Shown here in pieces: positions 14,495-26,775 of a stretch of 35,836 bases of DNA; within the stretch, counting starts at the first letter, position 1; every line of letters starts with the position of its first letter. Under the pieces are notes generated by a model. That model saw nothing but the letters and a program-made list of their open reading frames with translations. It did not search any database and was not told where the DNA came from. Position numbers and translations under genes: made by a program. The stretch is from Candidatus Woesebacteria bacterium (GTDB lineage Bacteria > Patescibacteriota > Microgenomatia > Woykebacterales > 2-01-FULL-43-14), in assembly GCA_020060105.1 (NCBI GenBank), contig JAGVAV010000016.1, positions 1 to 35,836 of the forward strand, given 5' to 3'.

Positions 14495-15910
14495 CTAGGC
14501 TTCTAAAATTACCGCTTTGCTCATGAAATCCACCACCGCCGGATCAACCATCACATCTCTGGGAGTGATCTGTCTTTTCAGATATAGTCCGTCGAGGGAG
14601 GCGCAACGGCTCAAAGCCACGTAAGTTTGCCCGTGGGCAAAGGCGCCCCAGCCCATATCCACTACCGCTGACTGATAGGTCTGTCCTTGAGACTTGTGCA
14701 CCGTGATCGCCCAGGCAAGCCTTAAGGGAAATTGGATAAAAGCACTGACCACCTCTTCTTCCACCTGCCCGCTTTCTTTATTATAAAAATAGCGGATTTT
14801 ATTCCAGACATTCTTATCTACCTTGTGCACTTCCCCATCGATATCGACTTTTATCTCCTCTTCTGAAACCGAGTGAATGACCCCCAAGGTTCCGTTCACC
14901 CAGCGCTTCTGGGTATCGTTTTTGAGCAACATTACTTGCGCCCCTTTTTTCAAAGTCAAAACTTCTTCAGTCGGATAAGCGGAAGGCTCGAGGTTGCCGG
15001 TAATTTCCGCTTTAAATTCGTAAGCCTTTCCAGCAAGTCCCGCCAAGCGCCGGTGGTTAATATCAAAGGCTGATTTATTGGTCGTGACTAAAGTAACCGC
15101 GCCTTCAAGCGGAGCCGTATGGCCACAGCGAGCGTTTAAAACGGTTAATAATTCGCTGCCGGCCTTCCCATTGCGAATCGCATTAAGGATCTCTTTAAAC
15201 TTCTGGTCTTTTTGCCGGAATATCGTCCTTAGTTCATAGATTTCCATCGGCACCGATCGCCAAGCATCAGCATGGAAAAAGTAATAACCGCCATGATTTT
15301 CGAGAAAGTACTGCTGCAGCTCCCTGTCACTGACCACCGGCGGAAGCTGGTGGAGGTCGCCAAACATCACGATCTGCACTCCCCCGAAAGGACTCTTGTT
15401 TGATCTGGCTTTCCGCAAGAGAAAATCGATCCCGTCCATCAGATCCGCCCTGACCATCGAGATTTCATCAATCACCAAGGTGTCAATGTTTCTTAGCAGT
15501 TCCGCCGTTTTGGAATCTAAGGGAATATTGCTCTTCGGCACAAAGGCGGGAGCGATCTTGAAAAAGGAGTGAATCGTCTGCCCTTCCACATTAAGCGCCG
15601 CTACCCCGGTCGGGGCGACCACTGCGTTACGCTTCGAAGTGTTTTGCCGAAAGTATTGCAACAGTAACGACTTCCCCGTCCCCGCTTTGCCGGTGACAAA
15701 GATATGGCTCGTCGTCTTCTCGAGCTTTTCAAACAAACTCTGCTGCTCACGACTAAGCGTAACCCTCGAAAGATCTGCTCTTCGCTCATTCATCCTCCGT
15801 TTCGGCACAACTGTCTGCCGCTTAATCGTTCGGGATTTCCTCTTCGATTTTTTACTTTTTAGAACCTGATAAATCGCATCAATAATGCTAAGTAACAACG
15901 TCTGTTTCAT
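14495..15910 (-). CDS. PIF1-like superfamily 1B DNA helicase
   Basis: A 471-residue ATP-dependent 5'-3' DNA helicase of the PIF1/RecD type. Visible motifs in order are Walker A GKAGTGKS (74-81), VVAPTGVAALNVEGQTIHSFF (motif Ia), Walker B VIDEISM near 146-152, FGDLHQLPPV (motif III), RTIFRQ, and the C-terminal AITVHKSQGQT and TYVALSRC motifs. PIF1 enzymes unwind stalled forks and unusual structures. Roughly 50 basic residues precede the core. A weak TATATT box lies about ten bases before the ATG and no SD is seen. It stands alone downstream of the membrane-protein gene at 15997-16857. Confidence 0.92.
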   Translation of the reverse strand: MKQTLLLSIIDAIYQVLKSKKSKRKSRTIKRQTVVPKRRMNERRADLSRVTLSREQQSLFEKLEKTTSHIFVTGKAGTGKSLLLQYFRQNTSKRNAVVAPTGVAALNVEGQTIHSFFKIAPAFVPKSNIPLDSKTAELLRNIDTLVIDEISMVRADLMDGIDFLLRKARSNKSPFGGVQIVMFGDLHQLPPVVSDRELQQYFLENHGGYYFFHADAWRSVPMEIYELRTIFRQKDQKFKEILNAIRNGKAGSELLTVLNARCGHTAPLEGAVTLVTTNKSAFDINHRRLAGLAGKAYEFKAEITGNLEPSAYPTEEVLTLKKGAQVMLLKNDTQKRWVNGTLGVIHSVSEEEIKVDIDGEVHKVDKNVWNKIRYFYNKESGQVEEEVVSAFIQFPLRLAWAITVHKSQGQTYQSAVVDMGWGAFAHGQTYVALSRCASLDGLYLKRQITPRDVMVDPAVVDFMSKAVILEA

Positions 15911-16938: not shown

Positions 16939-16967
16939 TTGTTAGTTCGGTCTTTTTGGGGTATAAT
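16939..16967 (+). promoter_or_regulatory. Near-leaderless promoter of the Type III RM operon
   Basis: TTGTTA (16939-16944), 17 bases, TATAAT (16962-16967), then nine bases to the ATG at 16977, which has no SD. The expected leader is zero to three bases. Confidence 0.6.
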
Positions 16968-16976
16968 TTGTTTAAT

Positions 16977-18896
16977 ATGGGACAAGAAACTAGAGAAAAA
17001 CTAAAAACTACCGTTAATACCACAAAACTAGGTGGTAGCTCTTATTTTCCTCAGGACGAATTAATTCAGCGTCTAAAAAGTGATTTTCCTGAAGTTTTTG
17101 CTGAAGAAAAAGTTGATTTTGGCAAGCTAAAAGCGGCGTTAGGTGAAAATGTTGACCTAGGTGAAAGATACGGACTAACTTGGAAAGGCAAAAGCGACGT
17201 TTTTCGGGTTATTCAAGAAACTACCACAAAAACTCTTAAGCCAGCTCGGGAAGAATCAGTAAATTTTGACGAAACAGATAATCTTTTTATCGAAGGCGAT
17301 AATCTTGAAGTTTTAAAAGTTCTGCAACGTGCCTACTATGGCAAAGTGAAAATGATTTATATCGATCCTCCATACAACACCGGTAGTGACTTTATCTACA
17401 ATGATGACAGAAGTCAGTCAATACAGGAATACGAAAAAGAAGCAGGAATTCGGGATGAAAATGGTTATATTAAAGAAGATACACGTCTCCGTAGAAACAC
17501 CAAAGACGGCGGCCACTTTCACAGTAACTGGCTGAACATGATGTATCCCCGACTCTACCTCGCCCGCAATCTCCTCCGCCAGGACGGTGTAATTTTTGCT
17601 AGCATCGACGACAACGAAATCCACAATTTAAGAATGATAATGAATGAAATTTTTGGTGAAGAAAATTTCATAGCAATATTTCCTTGGAGAAAAAGAACTG
17701 CGAAAACTGACGTTCCTTTTGGTATTTCTCAAGACTATGAATGGATCTTAGCATTTACTAAAGGAGAATTCCAAGCTGGAAGAATTTCCGAAAGAAAGTA
17801 TTATCATTCAGATGATTACAAAGAGGGGTGGCGCCTGTCAGATCTTACAACTCAAAGAAGTGCAACCGAACGACCGAATTCCTTTTTTAATTTAGTTAAT
17901 CCGAAAGACGGAAAAGAATACCCTGCTAACCCCAACCGAGTTTGGGGAGTTACTAAAAATTCTTTTGAACTTTATTTTAAAAAGGGAAAGATAGTTTTTC
18001 CTGGGGATTATAAATTTTTAAATATTACAAAACCAGCCTTTAGAGTTTTCGAAAGTGAGGATAAAGAGAAAAATTTAACAAATAATGGATCAGAAGTTAA
18101 TATTACGGCAATTTCAACCCTATTACCCTTAGAAACGGGCCGAACAGAGGAAGGAACGAAGGAACTTACTAACTTAATGGGAGGAAAAATGTTCCCATTC
18201 CCAAAACCTGTATCGCTAATAAAGTTTCTAATTAATATAACCAACGACAAGGATTCTATTGTGTTAGATTTTTTCGCAGGGTCTGGTACGGCTGCTCAAG
18301 CTGTTACGCAGCTAAATTCAGAAGACGGTGGAAATCGGAAGTGGGTTATGGTTCAGTTACCTGAGGAAACGGAACAAAATAGCGAAGCCCAAAAAGCAGG
18401 ATACATAACAATTGCGGACATTGCAAAGGAAAGAATTAGAAGAGCGGGGAAAAAGATTGCAGAAGAAAATAAGGATATAAAAATCGATCTAGGCTTTAAG
18501 GTCTTCAAACTTGAGTCAACTAACTTTAAAATCTGGGATTCAAGTGTCAAAACACCAAATGAACTAGAGCAGCAAATGCTCAGTATGTTTGACGTAATTC
18601 GCAAAGACGCAAACGAAGAAGACCTACTATTCGAGCTAATGCTCAAAAGCGGAATCGAGCCAACAACCCCACGTAAGAAAAAAGAAGTTGCTAGCCTCCC
18701 CTACTGGATAATTGGCGATGGGAAACTAATAATTTGTCTTGCCAAAGAAATAACACAAGAATTATTTGACACAATCCTCGCCGAAAAACCCCAAAAACTT
18801 ATTTTCCTCGAAAGTGCTCTAAAAAGTAACGACCAATTAAAAACTAACCTACACTTACAGGCAGAAAAGGAAGCTCTTGAAATTTCTGTAGTTTAG
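16977..18896 (+). CDS. mod: Type III restriction-modification DNA methyltransferase (Mod)
   Basis: Modification and target-recognition subunit of a Type III system; it methylates adenine on one strand and also guides Res. Motif IV DPPYNTG is at residues 130-136 and the AdoMet loop LDFFAGSGT near 430, so the order is that of beta-class methyltransferases such as EcoP15I Mod. The target-recognition region lies between them, followed by the C-terminal part. About 640 residues is normal. The ATG at 16977 was chosen because a TTG at 16956 lies upstream of the -10 box. It heads a five-gene operon. Base composition is visibly more AT-rich than the core genes, consistent with transfer. Confidence 0.95.
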   Translation: MGQETREKLKTTVNTTKLGGSSYFPQDELIQRLKSDFPEVFAEEKVDFGKLKAALGENVDLGERYGLTWKGKSDVFRVIQETTTKTLKPAREESVNFDETDNLFIEGDNLEVLKVLQRAYYGKVKMIYIDPPYNTGSDFIYNDDRSQSIQEYEKEAGIRDENGYIKEDTRLRRNTKDGGHFHSNWLNMMYPRLYLARNLLRQDGVIFASIDDNEIHNLRMIMNEIFGEENFIAIFPWRKRTAKTDVPFGISQDYEWILAFTKGEFQAGRISERKYYHSDDYKEGWRLSDLTTQRSATERPNSFFNLVNPKDGKEYPANPNRVWGVTKNSFELYFKKGKIVFPGDYKFLNITKPAFRVFESEDKEKNLTNNGSEVNITAISTLLPLETGRTEEGTKELTNLMGGKMFPFPKPVSLIKFLINITNDKDSIVLDFFAGSGTAAQAVTQLNSEDGGNRKWVMVQLPEETEQNSEAQKAGYITIADIAKERIRRAGKKIAEENKDIKIDLGFKVFKLESTNFKIWDSSVKTPNELEQQMLSMFDVIRKDANEEDLLFELMLKSGIEPTTPRKKKEVASLPYWIIGDGKLIICLAKEITQELFDTILAEKPQKLIFLESALKSNDQLKTNLHLQAEKEALEISVV

Positions 18897-18909
18897 CTTA
18901 GGATAAACT

Positions 18910-19569
18910 ATGACACAAACAATAAAAAGAATAAAACAACTTAAAGTAATTGAAAGTTTTATACAGGCAGATTTTGTTAAAGGTTTTAAGTACGTAGATA
19001 AAGCTGGTGAAATTGTTAATATGTTTTATGAAGGAAACACACCGCCAGTGTTTGAAATGAATTTAAACGGATTAACTATCCAAAATATTGATAAACAAAC
19101 AAGAGAGATTAAAATATCACCTTTTTCATTCTGGGCACACTTCACTGAGCCTGGTAGCTTATACGATATATTCTCATTATTCGAAAAGAAACTAGAGGCT
19201 ATTGTGCCGATACTATCCCCAGCGGGGTTTCGCCGTCTTGGCTGGAGAAACTACTTCGTCCATGAGTTTAGTAGTGAGAAAGAAAGAGAGAAAGTTTTAA
19301 TAAAATTCCTGCCCAACAAATTACTGGAGTTTAATGAGATTTCTCTCACTTCAAAAACTGAGAAGATAAGTAGTCAAATTTCAATCAAGAAAGTATTTAA
19401 AAAAAGTCCTTCTAAAACAGCTGCTCTCCTACTAGATGTTGATCATTTTATTAGTTATGAGGACTCTGTTGATCTTAGAAGAATCGAAGCCGATCTAAGA
19501 GAAATTAAATCATATTTAGATTCTCAGGATTTTCTTGGAGTTGTTAACTGTATTTTAAGTACACGTTAA
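18910..19569 (+). CDS. Operon protein between mod and res, TIGR04255-like?
   Basis: A 219-residue soluble protein placed 13 bases after mod and four bases before the next gene. ISPFSFWAHFTEPGSLYDIFSLFEKKLEAI and the later GFRRLGWRNYFVHEF resemble, by pattern only, the sporadically distributed TIGR04255 family, which often sits near defence genes and has no known activity. No catalytic motif is visible. Tight spacing implies co-expression with the restriction genes. It could be an accessory or regulatory subunit, or an unrelated passenger. Confidence 0.5.
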   Translation: MTQTIKRIKQLKVIESFIQADFVKGFKYVDKAGEIVNMFYEGNTPPVFEMNLNGLTIQNIDKQTREIKISPFSFWAHFTEPGSLYDIFSLFEKKLEAIVPILSPAGFRRLGWRNYFVHEFSSEKEREKVLIKFLPNKLLEFNEISLTSKTEKISSQISIKKVFKKSPSKTAALLLDVDHFISYEDSVDLRRIEADLREIKSYLDSQDFLGVVNCILSTR

Positions 19570-19573
19570 ATCT

Positions 19574-19936
19574 ATGGATTTTCTAAAGTACTTCGCTCAA
19601 TCTAAAATCCCAACACTTGTTCTTGTAGCACTTGTATTGTTTACAGGGGGTTACATCGTTGTAAACAGTAAAGGTGATTCAAATATTTTATTAGCCGGGG
19701 AAGCTTTTTTAGGATTAGGTGGATTCTTGGCGGTAGTTGCTTTTATTGACTATCGAAACAAAGAATACATTGATTCGATAATTACCCATTATAGGCAAGC
19801 ACTAGAAAGTATCGGTAAAACACATTCGCAAATCGAGGAAAATAAACAAGAAAGTCTTCGCCGTGAGGTAGAGGGTACCAACTATGGAGAAGACTACGCT
19901 CTCGAGTCTGAGCCGAAAACAGTAGGAAAGTCATAA
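19574..19936 (+). CDS. Small two-helix membrane protein in the RM operon
   Basis: A 120-residue protein with two hydrophobic helices (about 12-31 and 38-58) followed by a soluble, helical, charged tail (YRQALESIGKTHSQIEENKQESLRRE) that could form a coiled coil. It lies four bases after the previous gene and 27 bases before res. No family was recognised. A membrane protein inside a Type III RM operon is unusual. Confidence 0.5.
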   Translation: MDFLKYFAQSKIPTLVLVALVLFTGGYIVVNSKGDSNILLAGEAFLGLGGFLAVVAFIDYRNKEYIDSIITHYRQALESIGKTHSQIEENKQESLRREVEGTNYGEDYALESEPKTVGKS

Positions 19937-19963
19937 CACAAAGAATCTCTGGGGATAGGAAGA

Positions 19964-22669
19964 ATGATGAAACTCCAGTTTGATGCAAATCAGGATTATC
20001 AATTAGACGCTGTGAAAGCGGTGGTGGACATATTTGAAGGACAACCGTTACAAGCAGATGATTTGACTATTTCAATAGACAGTAACAACGCGAGGCAAAG
20101 ACTTATTCAGGATGTCGTTGTCGGAAATCAGCTGCTTATCAATGAACAACAGATTGCCTTAAATACTCGCGCTGTCCAGCAACGTAATGGATTAGAATTA
20201 TCAGAAACAAAAGGCGGCGGTGCTACCTTACCAGCTGCTTTACCAGTAGCTTTAGCATTTGGCAAACTTAAAGACGGAATGAACTTTACTGTCGAAATGG
20301 AGACAGCAACCGGGAAAACTTACGTTTATCTTCGCACCATTCATGAGCTTTATAAAACATACGGATTCAAGAAATTTATCATCGTTGTTCCCTCTTTGGC
20401 CATCAAAGAAGGTGCTTTAAAAAACCTGGAAATTACCAAAGAACATTTTGCCTCACTTTACAATAATCCAAAAATGGACTGGTACGTCTGGGATCCAAAG
20501 AAACGCGGACAGTCACGAGCTTTTGCTACTAATGATAGCTTGCAAATCCTAGTTATTACCATCGACTCATTTACCCGAGCTCAAAACATTATTCATCAAC
20601 AATCTGATTGGGGCGTGCCGATTGAATATATTCGTGCTACTAATCCTATCGTCATTGTGGACGAGCCGCAAAATATGGAAACAGAAATTCGGAAGAAAGC
20701 GATTGAAATGCTTAACTCTCTTTGTACTTTACGATACTCTGCTACTCACAAATACGCCTATAACATGCTTTATAAACTCGACCCTGTCAAAGCCTACGAC
20801 TTAGGACTAGTTAAAAAAATCGAAGTCGATTCAGTGCTTTCAGAGGATGCTTTCAACACCGCTTATATTCACGTCACAAAAATTGAGCGCCAGGGAAAAA
20901 GTGGCCTTGTCGCTCATATTGAAGTAGATCGAGACGATACTCGAGGATTACAACGCCAGGTACTTCGAATAAGTCCTGGTGACGATTTGTTTGCCCTAAC
21001 CAATCGGGAAATTTATCGAGACTATATTTTGGACCGAATTGATTTCGTTGAGCAATCGGTAGAATTTTCAAACGGACAGATTTTTTATATTGGTCAAAAA
21101 AATGAAGGTTTACATGAAGAAATAGTTAAATATCAGGTTCAGCGAACCGTGGAAAACCATTTTGAAAAAGAAGCTAGACTAAAAAATCAAGGAATCAAAG
21201 TTCTTTCCTTATTTTTTATCGATAAAGTCGCCAACTACCGGGAATATATCGAAGGTGGGTTTACCAAAGGAAAATTTGCTAAGTGGTTCGAGGAAGCATA
21301 CAATACTATTCAAGCTAAGCCAAAGTTTTCCGGTGTTTTAGAATTTGAAGCCGAAAAAGTGCACAACGGGTACTTTTCCCAAGATAAAAGCGGTGTTTGG
21401 AAAGACACTAAAGGAGAATCTGAAGCGGATGACAATACATACGAGCTTATCATGAAAGAAAAAGAACGTCTTCTTGATCCGAAAGAACCTCTTCGCTTTA
21501 TCTTCAGTCACTCTGCCTTGCGAGAAGGCTGGGACAACCCAAATGTTTTTCAAATTTGTACTATAAATGAAACAACCTCCGAAATTAAAAAACGTCAAGA
21601 AATCGGCCGAGGTCTTCGCTTGCCGGTAAATACGGAAGGACTAAGAGTCAGGGATGATTCAATTAATGTTTTAACGGTAATCGCAAACGAAAGTTACGAA
21701 GATTTTGCACGCAAGTTGCAGTCAGAAATTGAAGAAGAAACGGGAGTTAATTTCAGCGGTCGAATTAAAGATAAAAAAGAACGTCGAGCGGTCAAGTTAA
21801 ACAAAGGTTTTAAATTAGACGTGAACTTTAAAGAGCTCTGGGATCGAATCAAGCACCAAACTCGATATCATGTGACCTTTGACAGCAACAAGCTAATTGA
21901 AGAAGTTGCAAAAATTTTGCGAGAGGTTTCGATTAATCGCCCTAGAATAAGTAGTGTTCGGGCTCGAGTAGAATATGGCGAGGATGGATTATCAACAATT
22001 GTAAGAGACAGCTCTGGAACATATGCCGTGAATGGAGAAAACGATATTTTAATACCCGATGTTTTAGGAAAAATTCAATCGCATACCAAATTAACTCGAA
22101 AAACTATTTTTAATATCCTTAAAACCGCCAATAAAATTCCGGATATTTTAGTAAACCCTCAGCAAGTAATTGATGAAGCAAGACGAGCAATTAATATCGT
22201 GATGCCTAGTTTGATGGTTGACGGAATAAAATACGAAAAGATCGAAGGCGGCAGATGGGAAATGAAACGATTTGAAAATGAAGAGCTTGAAACTTACCTT
22301 GATGGCTTAGTGGAAGTGAAAAATCAAGATAAAACACTTTACGATCATGTTTTAGTGGATTCTGATGTCGAACGTTCTTTTGCTAAAGAGCTAGAAAATC
22401 GCGAAGACGTAAAATTTTACTTTAAACTCCCTAGCTGGTTTAAAATCGACACACCTCTAGGTGGTTATAACCCTGACTGGGCTGTGGTTTTTGAAGGTGA
22501 TAAAAGAATTTATTTTGTTGCAGAAACTAAAGGAACAGACGATTTTTATGACCCATGTCTTTCTGAGTCAGAAAGACAAAAGATACTTTGTGGACGAAAA
22601 CATTTTGAAGTTTTCAAGAATATCGTTTATAAGGCTCCAGTCAAAACGGTTCAAAAGTTACTGGAATAG
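19964..22669 (+). CDS. res: Type III restriction enzyme, Res subunit
   Basis: ATP-dependent helicase-like motor and endonuclease that cuts after meeting another complex on unmodified DNA. Motif I METATGKT is at 112-119 and motif II VDEPQNM (DEPQ) at 232-238. Later motifs include FIFSHSALREGWDNPNVFQICTI and QEIGRGLRLPV. The C-terminal nuclease core shows P837-D838 and E854-T-K856. All key residues are present, so it looks functional. The length of 901 residues suits the family. AGGAAG precedes an ATG-ATG pair at 19964. Confidence 0.96.
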   Translation: MMKLQFDANQDYQLDAVKAVVDIFEGQPLQADDLTISIDSNNARQRLIQDVVVGNQLLINEQQIALNTRAVQQRNGLELSETKGGGATLPAALPVALAFGKLKDGMNFTVEMETATGKTYVYLRTIHELYKTYGFKKFIIVVPSLAIKEGALKNLEITKEHFASLYNNPKMDWYVWDPKKRGQSRAFATNDSLQILVITIDSFTRAQNIIHQQSDWGVPIEYIRATNPIVIVDEPQNMETEIRKKAIEMLNSLCTLRYSATHKYAYNMLYKLDPVKAYDLGLVKKIEVDSVLSEDAFNTAYIHVTKIERQGKSGLVAHIEVDRDDTRGLQRQVLRISPGDDLFALTNREIYRDYILDRIDFVEQSVEFSNGQIFYIGQKNEGLHEEIVKYQVQRTVENHFEKEARLKNQGIKVLSLFFIDKVANYREYIEGGFTKGKFAKWFEEAYNTIQAKPKFSGVLEFEAEKVHNGYFSQDKSGVWKDTKGESEADDNTYELIMKEKERLLDPKEPLRFIFSHSALREGWDNPNVFQICTINETTSEIKKRQEIGRGLRLPVNTEGLRVRDDSINVLTVIANESYEDFARKLQSEIEEETGVNFSGRIKDKKERRAVKLNKGFKLDVNFKELWDRIKHQTRYHVTFDSNKLIEEVAKILREVSINRPRISSVRARVEYGEDGLSTIVRDSSGTYAVNGENDILIPDVLGKIQSHTKLTRKTIFNILKTANKIPDILVNPQQVIDEARRAINIVMPSLMVDGIKYEKIEGGRWEMKRFENEELETYLDGLVEVKNQDKTLYDHVLVDSDVERSFAKELENREDVKFYFKLPSWFKIDTPLGGYNPDWAVVFEGDKRIYFVAETKGTDDFYDPCLSESERQKILCGRKHFEVFKNIVYKAPVKTVQKLLE

Positions 22670-22675
22670 AGAATA

Positions 22676-23104
22676 ATGTCTACTAAAGAAGCTGGGGATT
22701 TTGGAGAAAATGAGATTGTTGATCTCATTGCTTGTCCAAATTGTCAGAAAAAATTAATGCTTTTGCCGGTTAGTTTCCCTCTTTACGACGTGCAATGCTC
22801 AGGTTGTAACTTCCGTGCGCAGGTAAAAACAAATTGCTGCAAACCTAAGAAAGAAATCTTTGGCGCGACATGGGAAGTAATGGACAAAACCACCAAATCA
22901 GGTTACTTCGTTCCCCCATTAATTGCCAATTTTAAATGGGTCGAAAAGGGAGAAATGAAACAAGAAATTAGATTTTATCCTTTTATTCCTAAGATAAATC
23001 TCAAAAAATATCTAGCCAAATTTAAGAATGGCCGGAAGGATCTTTGGATGTTCAATTACATCGGCCTCGACACCCTTCCCTATTTTCAACTATACAAAAG
23101 CTAA
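22676..23104 (+). CDS. DpnI-like zinc-containing PD-(D/E)XK nuclease domain
   Basis: A 142-residue protein six bases after res. Two cysteine pairs (C20/C23 and C41/C44) form a zinc ribbon enclosing YDVQCSGCNFRAQVKT, in which D38, Q49 and K51 have the D-x10-E/Q-x-K spacing of the DpnI catalytic core as I recall it. PPLIANFKW and YPFIPKINLKKY follow. DpnI itself cuts methylated GATC and has a C-terminal winged helix; that domain is missing here. The fold call is by motif. The protein may be a methylation-dependent nuclease, a nuclease for another context, or a subunit of the RM complex. Confidence 0.65.
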   Translation: MSTKEAGDFGENEIVDLIACPNCQKKLMLLPVSFPLYDVQCSGCNFRAQVKTNCCKPKKEIFGATWEVMDKTTKSGYFVPPLIANFKWVEKGEMKQEIRFYPFIPKINLKKYLAKFKNGRKDLWMFNYIGLDTLPYFQLYKS

Positions 23105-23229: not shown

Positions 23230-23386
23230 AAAAGATACTGTAGGAAGTCATAGAGAAGTTTTTGAAACATATAAACTAGTTCGAGATGCAGATATGAAAA
23301 GTAAAGATATAGATCAGTTTAAATTATGGTATGACAAAATGAAGGCTCTTAACCAAAAATTTGAAGATGTTTCATGGGAGCAATAA
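23213..23386 (+). pseudogene. 5'-truncated gene remnant downstream of copy A
   Basis: An open frame of 57 codons that follows a TAG inside repeat copy A and ends at 23386, with no usable start before an internal ATG at about residue 28. The peptide (for example REVFETYKLVRDADMKSKD and FKLWYDKMKALNQKFEDVSWEQ) looks like a helical protein C-terminus. Its last codons contain the GGGAG SD of the HEPN gene, so the two were probably translationally coupled. The 5' part seems to have been replaced by the repeat. Parent family not recognised. Confidence 0.4.
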
Positions 23387-23388
23387 TT

Positions 23389-24057
23389 ATGGATAAAAAA
23401 TTTTGTTCAGCATGTAATCAAGAAAGGGAGGTTGTTAATTCAATACCAATAGATAAGGGATTTCGACATGTCCTTTCTTGTGTCCACAATTTTATTGAGG
23501 TTAATCTCAGTGAAACCATAAAGGTAAGTGAGCTAATCGGTTTTAGAAAGACTGGAGAAAATCACGAAAAATATAAGCGCGGAGATAAACCACCTAATAC
23601 AAACTATGCAAAAAAGTTTATCGAATATGGAGATATAGATTACGGAGCAGCAGTTGTACTTTTTAACGTACAAGATAAGGATTGTGATTTTATGAATCAA
23701 GCCGCCTTTCTTTCTGCTCAAGCTGTAGAGAAATACTTAAAAGCCTTCCTTTTTTGGAATTCTCCTCAGCACTACCCAGGATTGTCGGGAAAACAAGTTT
23801 TAGAGGAATTTATAAACTTAAGACACGACCTTATAAAAATACTCAATGAGTGCGTCAAAGATAATAACGATTTTAATACCTTTAGGGCTCAATTAGAAAA
23901 TATCAATAAATACTCACTGTTAAAATATCCTGACATTGAAGATGCAATGGTTTATTCGAGTGGTGGACTGTCTATCAGTAGTGACATTTTGAAAGACGTA
24001 AAACAAATTGCTGATTTTACAAAAGAATTAATCCAGACTTCCAACCCCCGGGGTTAA
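23389..24057 (+). CDS. HEPN-domain protein with N-terminal zinc knuckle
   Basis: A 222-residue protein. The N-terminus has a short zinc-knuckle-like CSACNQE, with a later CVHNF. The centre-to-C-terminal part is a HEPN four-helix domain: FLSAQAVEKYLKAFLFW and LRHDLIKILNECVKD, with an R-H pair in the second helix. HEPN proteins are often RNases or toxin partners paired with an MNT nucleotidyltransferase; none is visible here. The ATG at 23389 was chosen because GGGAG lies eight bases upstream. The last five codons (SNPRG) and the stop lie inside repeat copy B, so the C-terminus was shaped by the repeat. Confidence 0.7.
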   Translation: MDKKFCSACNQEREVVNSIPIDKGFRHVLSCVHNFIEVNLSETIKVSELIGFRKTGENHEKYKRGDKPPNTNYAKKFIEYGDIDYGAAVVLFNVQDKDCDFMNQAAFLSAQAVEKYLKAFLFWNSPQHYPGLSGKQVLEEFINLRHDLIKILNECVKDNNDFNTFRAQLENINKYSLLKYPDIEDAMVYSSGGLSISSDILKDVKQIADFTKELIQTSNPRG

Positions 24058-25989: not shown

Positions 25990-26775
25990 TTAGCTATAAA
26001 AGCGGAGATCTTTTTTCGTTTCTGGAGGAAAAAACTTTAGGCCCAGTCCATCTAGTCTTCTACCTTCCCTATAAAACTTCTGTAGACTCAGCTCATCAAA
26101 TCGCCAGTAATCCCCCTTAGCTTTATTATACTCAAAAATATGATAAACAGGATAACAATAGAGATCTGCTATTTGGATACCTACGGTTTTGTCTGAAGTC
26201 GAAAAAAGCAATCGCTCGATAATATTTGGACACTTACGCCAGAAGCTATTATTCTCCTCCCACCTCATTCTATTGTGAATCTCATCCAACCGCTGGCCAA
26301 TAAAGCACTTCTCTACCTGACCCTCTCTAGGATCGATAATACATATTCCAAGTGAGTTTTGCTTCTCTAGAAATTTTTGAAACCTCTCTAACAAGAAAAT
26401 ATAAGCAATGTCGTAAGGATTTTGTGACGGGTACTTTTGCCAATAGCCCGCTTTGTCAATCACTACAGAGTACAAAATAACTGGAATTTCCCTTAAAAAG
26501 TCTGTCATTCGGGCTTCTAGTTCATTATATTTCTGACGATCGTTTAGCTTTATCGGGGAAGACTCCATCAAGTCAGGGTTTGCGTAACGAAGAAAATTAG
26601 ACTTTATCTCTATATCAGGATTTTGGTAATACTTCTGCTTTATTTGCCTGAACCCGTTCTCGATATTTTGCATATCTTTTTCGTGGATAACACACCCAGA
26701 TAACACCAAAAATTTACTTCCTTTTTGTGAAACAGGTGTTGTATCTCCAGATTCATCGATGTACATTAGATGCAT
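25990..26775 (-). CDS. DUF3800 protein
   Basis: A 261-residue soluble protein. MYIDESGDT at the start is the DUF3800 signature with putative metal-binding Asp/Glu. LVLSGCVI follows, then VILYSVVIDKA, a central CIIDPREG and the late GIQIADLYCYPVYH with its conserved Asp. DUF3800 proteins are predicted RNase H-like nucleases often found near phage-defence genes, with unknown activity. AAGGA lies five bases before the ATG. The last codons (FFPPETKKD) are duplicated as a remnant at 29335-29377. It is convergent with tspO; a CGCG hairpin (about 25954-25976) lies between them. Confidence 0.85.
   Translation of the reverse strand: MHLMYIDESGDTTPVSQKGSKFLVLSGCVIHEKDMQNIENGFRQIKQKYYQNPDIEIKSNFLRYANPDLMESSPIKLNDRQKYNELEARMTDFLREIPVILYSVVIDKAGYWQKYPSQNPYDIAYIFLLERFQKFLEKQNSLGICIIDPREGQVEKCFIGQRLDEIHNRMRWEENNSFWRKCPNIIERLLFSTSDKTVGIQIADLYCYPVYHIFEYNKAKGDYWRFDELSLQKFYREGRRLDGLGLKFFPPETKKDLRFYS

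Follow-up and report, generated by a model that had tools for sequence, protein, structure and literature searches.

A Type III restriction-modification operon from a Candidatus Woesebacteria genome with a conserved soluble-plus-membrane gene pair between mod and res

Described systems and the layout of the window operon

Restriction-modification (RM) systems are usually regarded as pairs of a methylase and a nuclease that are complete in themselves. The closest described relatives of the locus analysed here are the Type III systems of the EcoP1I/EcoP15I type, with which it shares full-length Mod and Res subunits retaining all key motifs and encoded in one operon; it differs from them in that two unrelated conserved genes (ORF2 and ORF3) split mod and res, and that a nuclease gene (P5) follows res. 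Second-line genes inside RM operons of several types have also been described, namely PrrC, RloC and HEPN genes (PMC3710099), with which ORF2 and ORF3 are comparable in their location, but they contain neither a HEPN nor an NTPase domain. Each ingredient of the locus is already known, be it the Type III RM system, the DpnI-type domain or the RM-linked second-line gene as represented by PrrC and RloC (PMC3710099); neither the family libraries nor the open-access literature searched contained a dedicated soluble-plus-membrane RM accessory common to Type II and Type III systems.

The window, i.e. the whole stretch of 35,836 nucleotides analysed here, is one of the 40 contigs of a 1.09 Mb genome (97.9% complete), and its named relatives that were found belong to Patescibacteria. 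Its plus strand carries five tightly packed ORFs in the order mod, ORF2, ORF3, res and P5 (Table 1), separated by gaps of 13, 4, 27 and 6 bases. The promoter-like site ahead of them is the best one in the scan, and the ATG of mod lies 10 bases beyond its end. Downstream of mod, a scan detected no plus-strand terminator-like site as far as the end of P5, which is weak evidence, and the Rfam search gave no match at or above threshold.

Table 1 Features of the operon (positions in the window)
Feature	Position	Strand	Basis
Promoter-like site TTGTTA-17-TATAAT	16939..16967	+	consensus scan only, 10/12 matches
mod, Type III N6-adenine methyltransferase subunit, 639 aa	16977..18896	+	motifs and profiles
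ORF2, conserved soluble accessory protein, 219 aa, pI 8.8	18910..19569	+	AF2, Foldseek, relatives
ORF2 signature motif R-x-G-W-R-N-Y-F, residues 109-116	19234..19257	+	alignment
ORF3, predicted two-helix membrane hairpin with cytosolic tail, ORF2 partner, 120 aa	19574..19936	+	hydropathy, neighbourhood
ORF3 predicted transmembrane segment 1, aa 12-30	19607..19663	+	hydropathy
ORF3 predicted transmembrane segment 2, aa 38-56	19685..19741	+	hydropathy
res, Type III helicase-nuclease subunit, 901 aa	19964..22669	+	motifs and profiles
Res C-terminal PD-(D/E)XK endonuclease domain, aa 790-894	22331..22645	+	Pfam RE_endonuc E 4.5e-36
P5, zinc-ribbon PD-(D/Q)XK nuclease domain, relative of the DpnI catalytic domain, 142 aa	22676..23104	+	profile, alignment
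P5 predicted active site D38...Q49-V-K51 with zinc cysteines C41, C44	22787..22828	+	invariant in alignment

In Mod, DPPY (aa 130) precedes FAGSG (aa 433), which is the motif order of the beta class of methyltransferases, and the protein matches Pfam N6_N4_Mtase (E 8.5e-34) and PADLOC MTase_III (E 9e-198). Res contains the SF2 helicase motifs TATGKT, VDEP, SATH and GRGLR as well as the C-terminal nuclease motif NPDW...ETKG, and matches PADLOC REase_III (E 1.8e-291) in addition to the Pfam family given in Table 1. Both genes share strand and operon, with ORF2 and ORF3 lying between them, and their products are, judged by motifs and profiles, intact Type III subunits. Systems of this type characteristically set m6A on one strand of an asymmetric site and require two head-to-head sites for cleavage. 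A sequence-only reading of this DNA had already stated that Mod and Res keep all key motifs and that five genes, with gaps of 4-27 bases, form one unit; the former is borne out by the motif positions, Pfam and PADLOC, and the latter by the confirmed ORFs and their spacing.

A gene pair behind unrelated restriction-modification systems

A sample of 380 genomes of the phylum contains two clear relatives of ORF2 (in G395 and G280) and a distant one (in G372), and a scan of the genomes of 84,980 species, which relies on short conserved words and so misses distant relatives in other phyla, yielded eight ORF2 loci (L030-L037), two of which are those of G395 and G280. About nine loci of the pair, which has a size of about 1 kb, are known, all from Patescibacteria. 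In each of the nine strong loci (window, L030-L037) the gene preceding ORF2 encodes a DNA methylase or a restriction enzyme, and ORF2 is followed, always in this order, by a whole or partial ORF3 (located at 9662-10075 in L034 and shortened to 77 aa in L032); the ORF2 of L036 is frameshifted, and the pair of L037 is decayed and partly deleted, only the end of ORF3 being left. Measured against two N6/N4 methylase genes among about 1000 genes, a rough yardstick with the gene number estimated from genome size, this adjacency lies far beyond chance. Of the two N6/N4 methylase genes in the window's genome, the second (573 aa) is separate and lies elsewhere, with no ORF2 there. The gaps before and within the pair run from -17 to +16 bases, which suggests translational coupling.

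The partners comprise Type III systems of three kinds and Type II systems of four (MvaI/BcnI, C5-methylase, TdeIII and MutH-like), the pair separating mod from res in the Type III loci and standing last in the Type II loci. The order mod-ORF2-ORF3-res of the window, where P5 follows, recurs in the Type III locus L033 of G395, whose mod and res are 45% and 62% identical to those of the window. Type III-like are also L031, with an extra Bro-N gene ahead of res, L030, whose Mod differs and whose Res falls into the BPTD_3080 group (below the cut-off of the model), and L034, with another Res and a Mod containing a TypeIII_RM_meth domain. The Type II loci combine an N6/N4 methylase with MvaI/BcnI (L035, E 3e-66), a C5 methylase (E 1e-78) with a 263 aa gene without assigned function (L032), a methylase with TdeIII (L036, E 6.5e-62) and a methylase with a MutH-like enzyme (L037, E 3.9e-10). 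A maximum-likelihood tree of eight ORF2s joins the window ORF2 with that of L030 (support 99/97), whose neighbouring Res is of another group; the ORF2 of L033 groups with L031 instead, in spite of the 62% identity of its neighbouring Res to that of the window, and the ORF2s from Type II loci fall into a single clade, the restriction enzymes beside them being unrelated. The branching of ORF2 thus does not follow the RM type, which shows that the pair moves between RM systems and has been exchanged between Type II and Type III systems that are unrelated to each other. Only two of the 13 phylum genomes with a close relative of Res, those of the window and G395, contain the pair; in the remaining 11 Res loci mod adjoins res, a Bro-N gene or a 261 aa gene is present, or the locus is too short or rearranged to tell. 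Tree and count together make the pair optional and mobile relative to its RM partner.

The sequence-only reading had regarded the two middle genes as an addition to the Type III architecture and had suggested looking for their co-occurrence with mod and res. The addition is real and conserved, the pair being found in eight other Patescibacteria loci, with the same gene order in L033 and a similar setting in L030, L031 and L034; instead of being confined to the window or lying far from RM genes, it stands behind RM genes in nine of nine loci. What has to be abandoned is the restriction of the pair to Type III, since it also stands behind four kinds of Type II system, and the inclusion of P5 in a conserved set, as no other pair locus contains P5 and the relatives of the latter sit in various surroundings.

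In the phylum, it is not uncommon for mod and res to be separated by further genes. Bro-N/DinD-like genes split mod from res, or follow ORF3, in L031 (1554-2396), L048 (590-1444) and L050 (645-1511), an assignment for which the Pfam check covers the L031 copy only, and they apparently represent a recurrent insertion in Type III operons of Patescibacteria; they share with ORF2-ORF3 the position between mod and res, but are unrelated to them, and L031 has both. The 261 aa gene between mod and res of L040 (711-1493) has no Pfam match.

The distant ORF2 relative of G372 (230 aa; L029, 7225-8401) overlaps the gene for a 164 aa protein that has a single transmembrane segment and a tail resembling a coiled coil; a D12 methylase and an AlwI-type enzyme are encoded at a distance of 2 kb. 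With such a membrane neighbour, the pairing of a soluble with a membrane protein may be a wider theme. Weak matches to ORF2 in three more genomes are likely due to chance, the one in G020 containing internal stops and those in G406 and G527 lying in reading frames of other genes.

Against the Pfam, NCBIfam, PADLOC and PHROG families, ORF2 and ORF3 gave only chance-level scores. In the alignment of ORF2 the signature residues R, G, W, R, N, Y and F are invariant, and a second cluster of invariant residues is D-x-A-G-E-x-V-N (30-37). The AlphaFold model, built from seven sequences (mean pLDDT 83.7), has the element order b-a-bbbb-a, then b-a-bbb-a, which is suggestive of two tandem TBP-like repeats. 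Its top PDB matches in Foldseek are TBPs (probability 0.99-1.00, E about 5e-4), with TM-scores of just 0.32-0.40 and an rmsd of about 10 Å, so that the match is only topological, a hint at the level of the fold. With the TBP-domain superfamily (TBP; N-domain of RNase H3, PMC4132731) ORF2 would share the predicted tandem b-a-b4-a repeats and the basic character, whereas it lacks sequence similarity and a catalytic domain, stays at a TM-score of 0.40 or below and has a membrane protein as partner. No sequence match of ORF2 to any PDB chain was obtained, and a profile comparison of its halves detected no sequence repeat. The closest viral model is that of a 202 aa protein (BFVD A0A515MGR4; TM 0.57-0.61, E 6e-10), and no ORF2 relatives were found in the phage genomes, viral contigs and plasmids searched. 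TIGR04255, considered as a possible family of ORF2, was rejected, as neither ORF2 nor four of its relatives has a match to it in NCBIfam (E<=1); members of TIGR04255 were found neither in 96 phylum genomes nor in the controls.

ORF3 consists of two hydrophobic segments with a short loop between them and a tail of about 60 residues, which is probably cytosolic according to the positive-inside rule; G25, G42, G49, E64 and Y73 are invariant in the alignment. With two predicted transmembrane helices and a soluble partner gene, it has the features expected of a two-transmembrane effector of defence systems.

Possible roles of the pair

As the partners are unrelated, the module is probably coupled to them via DNA or co-expression and not by specific protein contact. 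Our first choice, proposed tentatively, is an intact Type III RM system joined by a promiscuous ORF2-ORF3 module, which may back up restriction, and by a separate gene for a DpnI-type nuclease. ORF2, basic and with a predicted doubled TBP-like fold, would read the state of the DNA, be it incoming, cut or unmodified, and would then switch the membrane hairpin ORF3; this in turn would perturb the membrane and the cell would stop when restriction is overwhelmed, making the pair a backup, abortive-type arm of the RM system. P5 would act as an independent nuclease on DNA which escapes or bears a foreign mark. PrrC and RloC (PMC3710099) are precedents for suicide arms linked to RM systems, and in comparison with them the predicted hairpin of ORF3 suggests a target in the membrane rather than tRNA.

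Next to this, though on the whole somewhat unlikely, comes a membrane tether, in which ORF3 would anchor a DNA-binding ORF2 and thereby bring restriction to the site of DNA entry, either the competence channel or the site of phage injection, so that in a naturally competent epibiont the RM enzymes would meet incoming DNA first. The predicted hairpin with its cytosolic tail, the predicted fold of a nucleic-acid-binding type and the basic pI of ORF2 are consistent with anchoring, as is the ComEC encoded in the window's genome, Patescibacteria having been described as competent through ComEC and pili (PMC12455944), and coupling mediated by DNA would explain the change of partners equally well. 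A simple anchor would, however, not need conserved glycines in both membrane helices of ORF3, and the pair is absent from most RM systems of the window's Res family in the phylum. RM thus works without the pair, but this does not tell backup, anchoring or a mere passenger apart. That the pair is such a passenger, an independent defence or addiction cassette that resides in RM operons but is functionally unconnected to them, we regard as distinctly improbable: it does swap partners, RM systems do without it and decayed copies exist (frameshifted in L036, partly deleted in L037), but all nine loci lie directly behind RM genes, whereas a free cassette should also occur alone, as P5 does.

Controllers form an established class of accessory genes in RM systems and usually lie ahead of the RM operon. 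ORF2 could be such a controller, tuning the expression or activity of the RM system for safe entry into new cells, with ORF3 linking it to membrane or stress signals. The tight operon spacing and the ability of TBP-like folds to bind DNA agree with this; the position of the pair after mod and inside the operon in Type III loci does not, a membrane partner would be unusual for a controller, and no HTH family was matched, so that we consider control rather improbable. Least probable by far is a dedicated five-gene Type III variant including P5, for which the gaps of 4-27 bases speak, since P5 is found in no other pair locus and its relatives have Type I genes, Type II genes or no RM genes at all as neighbours.

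The pair might be an unrecognised mobile, membrane-acting defence unit, composed of a bacterial DNA sensor with a TBP fold and a membrane hairpin, which can join RM systems of Types II and III alike and would serve them as a shared backup arm or membrane address; we put this forward with reserve. That a conserved partner stands behind unrelated RM types suggests that there is a general function which RM systems can acquire, candidates being a response at the level of the membrane or the positioning of DNA cleavage at it, and the hosts of the pair are ultra-small, DNA-importing Patescibacteria, mostly without CRISPR.

The DpnI-like gene and its surroundings

P5 alone matches Pfam DpnI with an E of 6e-4, below the curated cut-off, and its family profile matches DpnI in the PDB across the catalytic domain (E 1.8e-6). 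To DpnI (Dam-replacing family, PDB 4esj/4kyw), an enzyme that cleaves only methylated GATC, it can be aligned over the catalytic domain including the zinc cysteines and the D...xK pattern; it differs in having Gln instead of Glu in the motif and in ending after the catalytic domain, the C-terminal winged-helix domain that reads DNA being absent. QxK replaces ExK in all ten P5 relatives aligned, D38 and K51 being invariant. Structure prediction from the single sequence was uninformative (pLDDT 35.7), and no relatives were found in the phage genomes and viral contigs searched. Eight other phylum genomes contain P5 relatives (54-66% identity), located beside Type I genes in G071, G366 and G298, beside an AlwI-type system in G207 and without RM neighbours in G195, G473, G522 and G358, so that five of nine members, including that of the window, lie beside RM genes. 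P5 itself is absent from every other ORF2-ORF3 locus. Judged by profile and alignment, the P5 family is a real, sporadically distributed family of nuclease domains not tied to the pair, and it exemplifies a looser RM link than that of the pair in the same phylum sampled.

One of the RM loci with a P5 relative (L006, 6132-12218) combines a methylase that carries a fused HSDR_N-like domain with an ATPase/OLD-like gene, HsdS and a 106 aa gene, with no obvious full HsdR. HEPN genes are frequent companions of RM systems; the window encodes a HEPN-domain protein with an N-terminal CxxC motif (23374-24057, Pfam HEPN E 9e-7) on the same strand as P5, 270 bases downstream of it. A DUF3800 protein is encoded about 3 kb downstream on the minus strand (25990-26775, Pfam E 4e-21), and a gene of similar appearance is found at 3946-4767 of L006. 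The window also contains a PIF1-like helicase gene (471 aa, 14495-15910), and a helicase similar in appearance lies near a P5 relative in L018.
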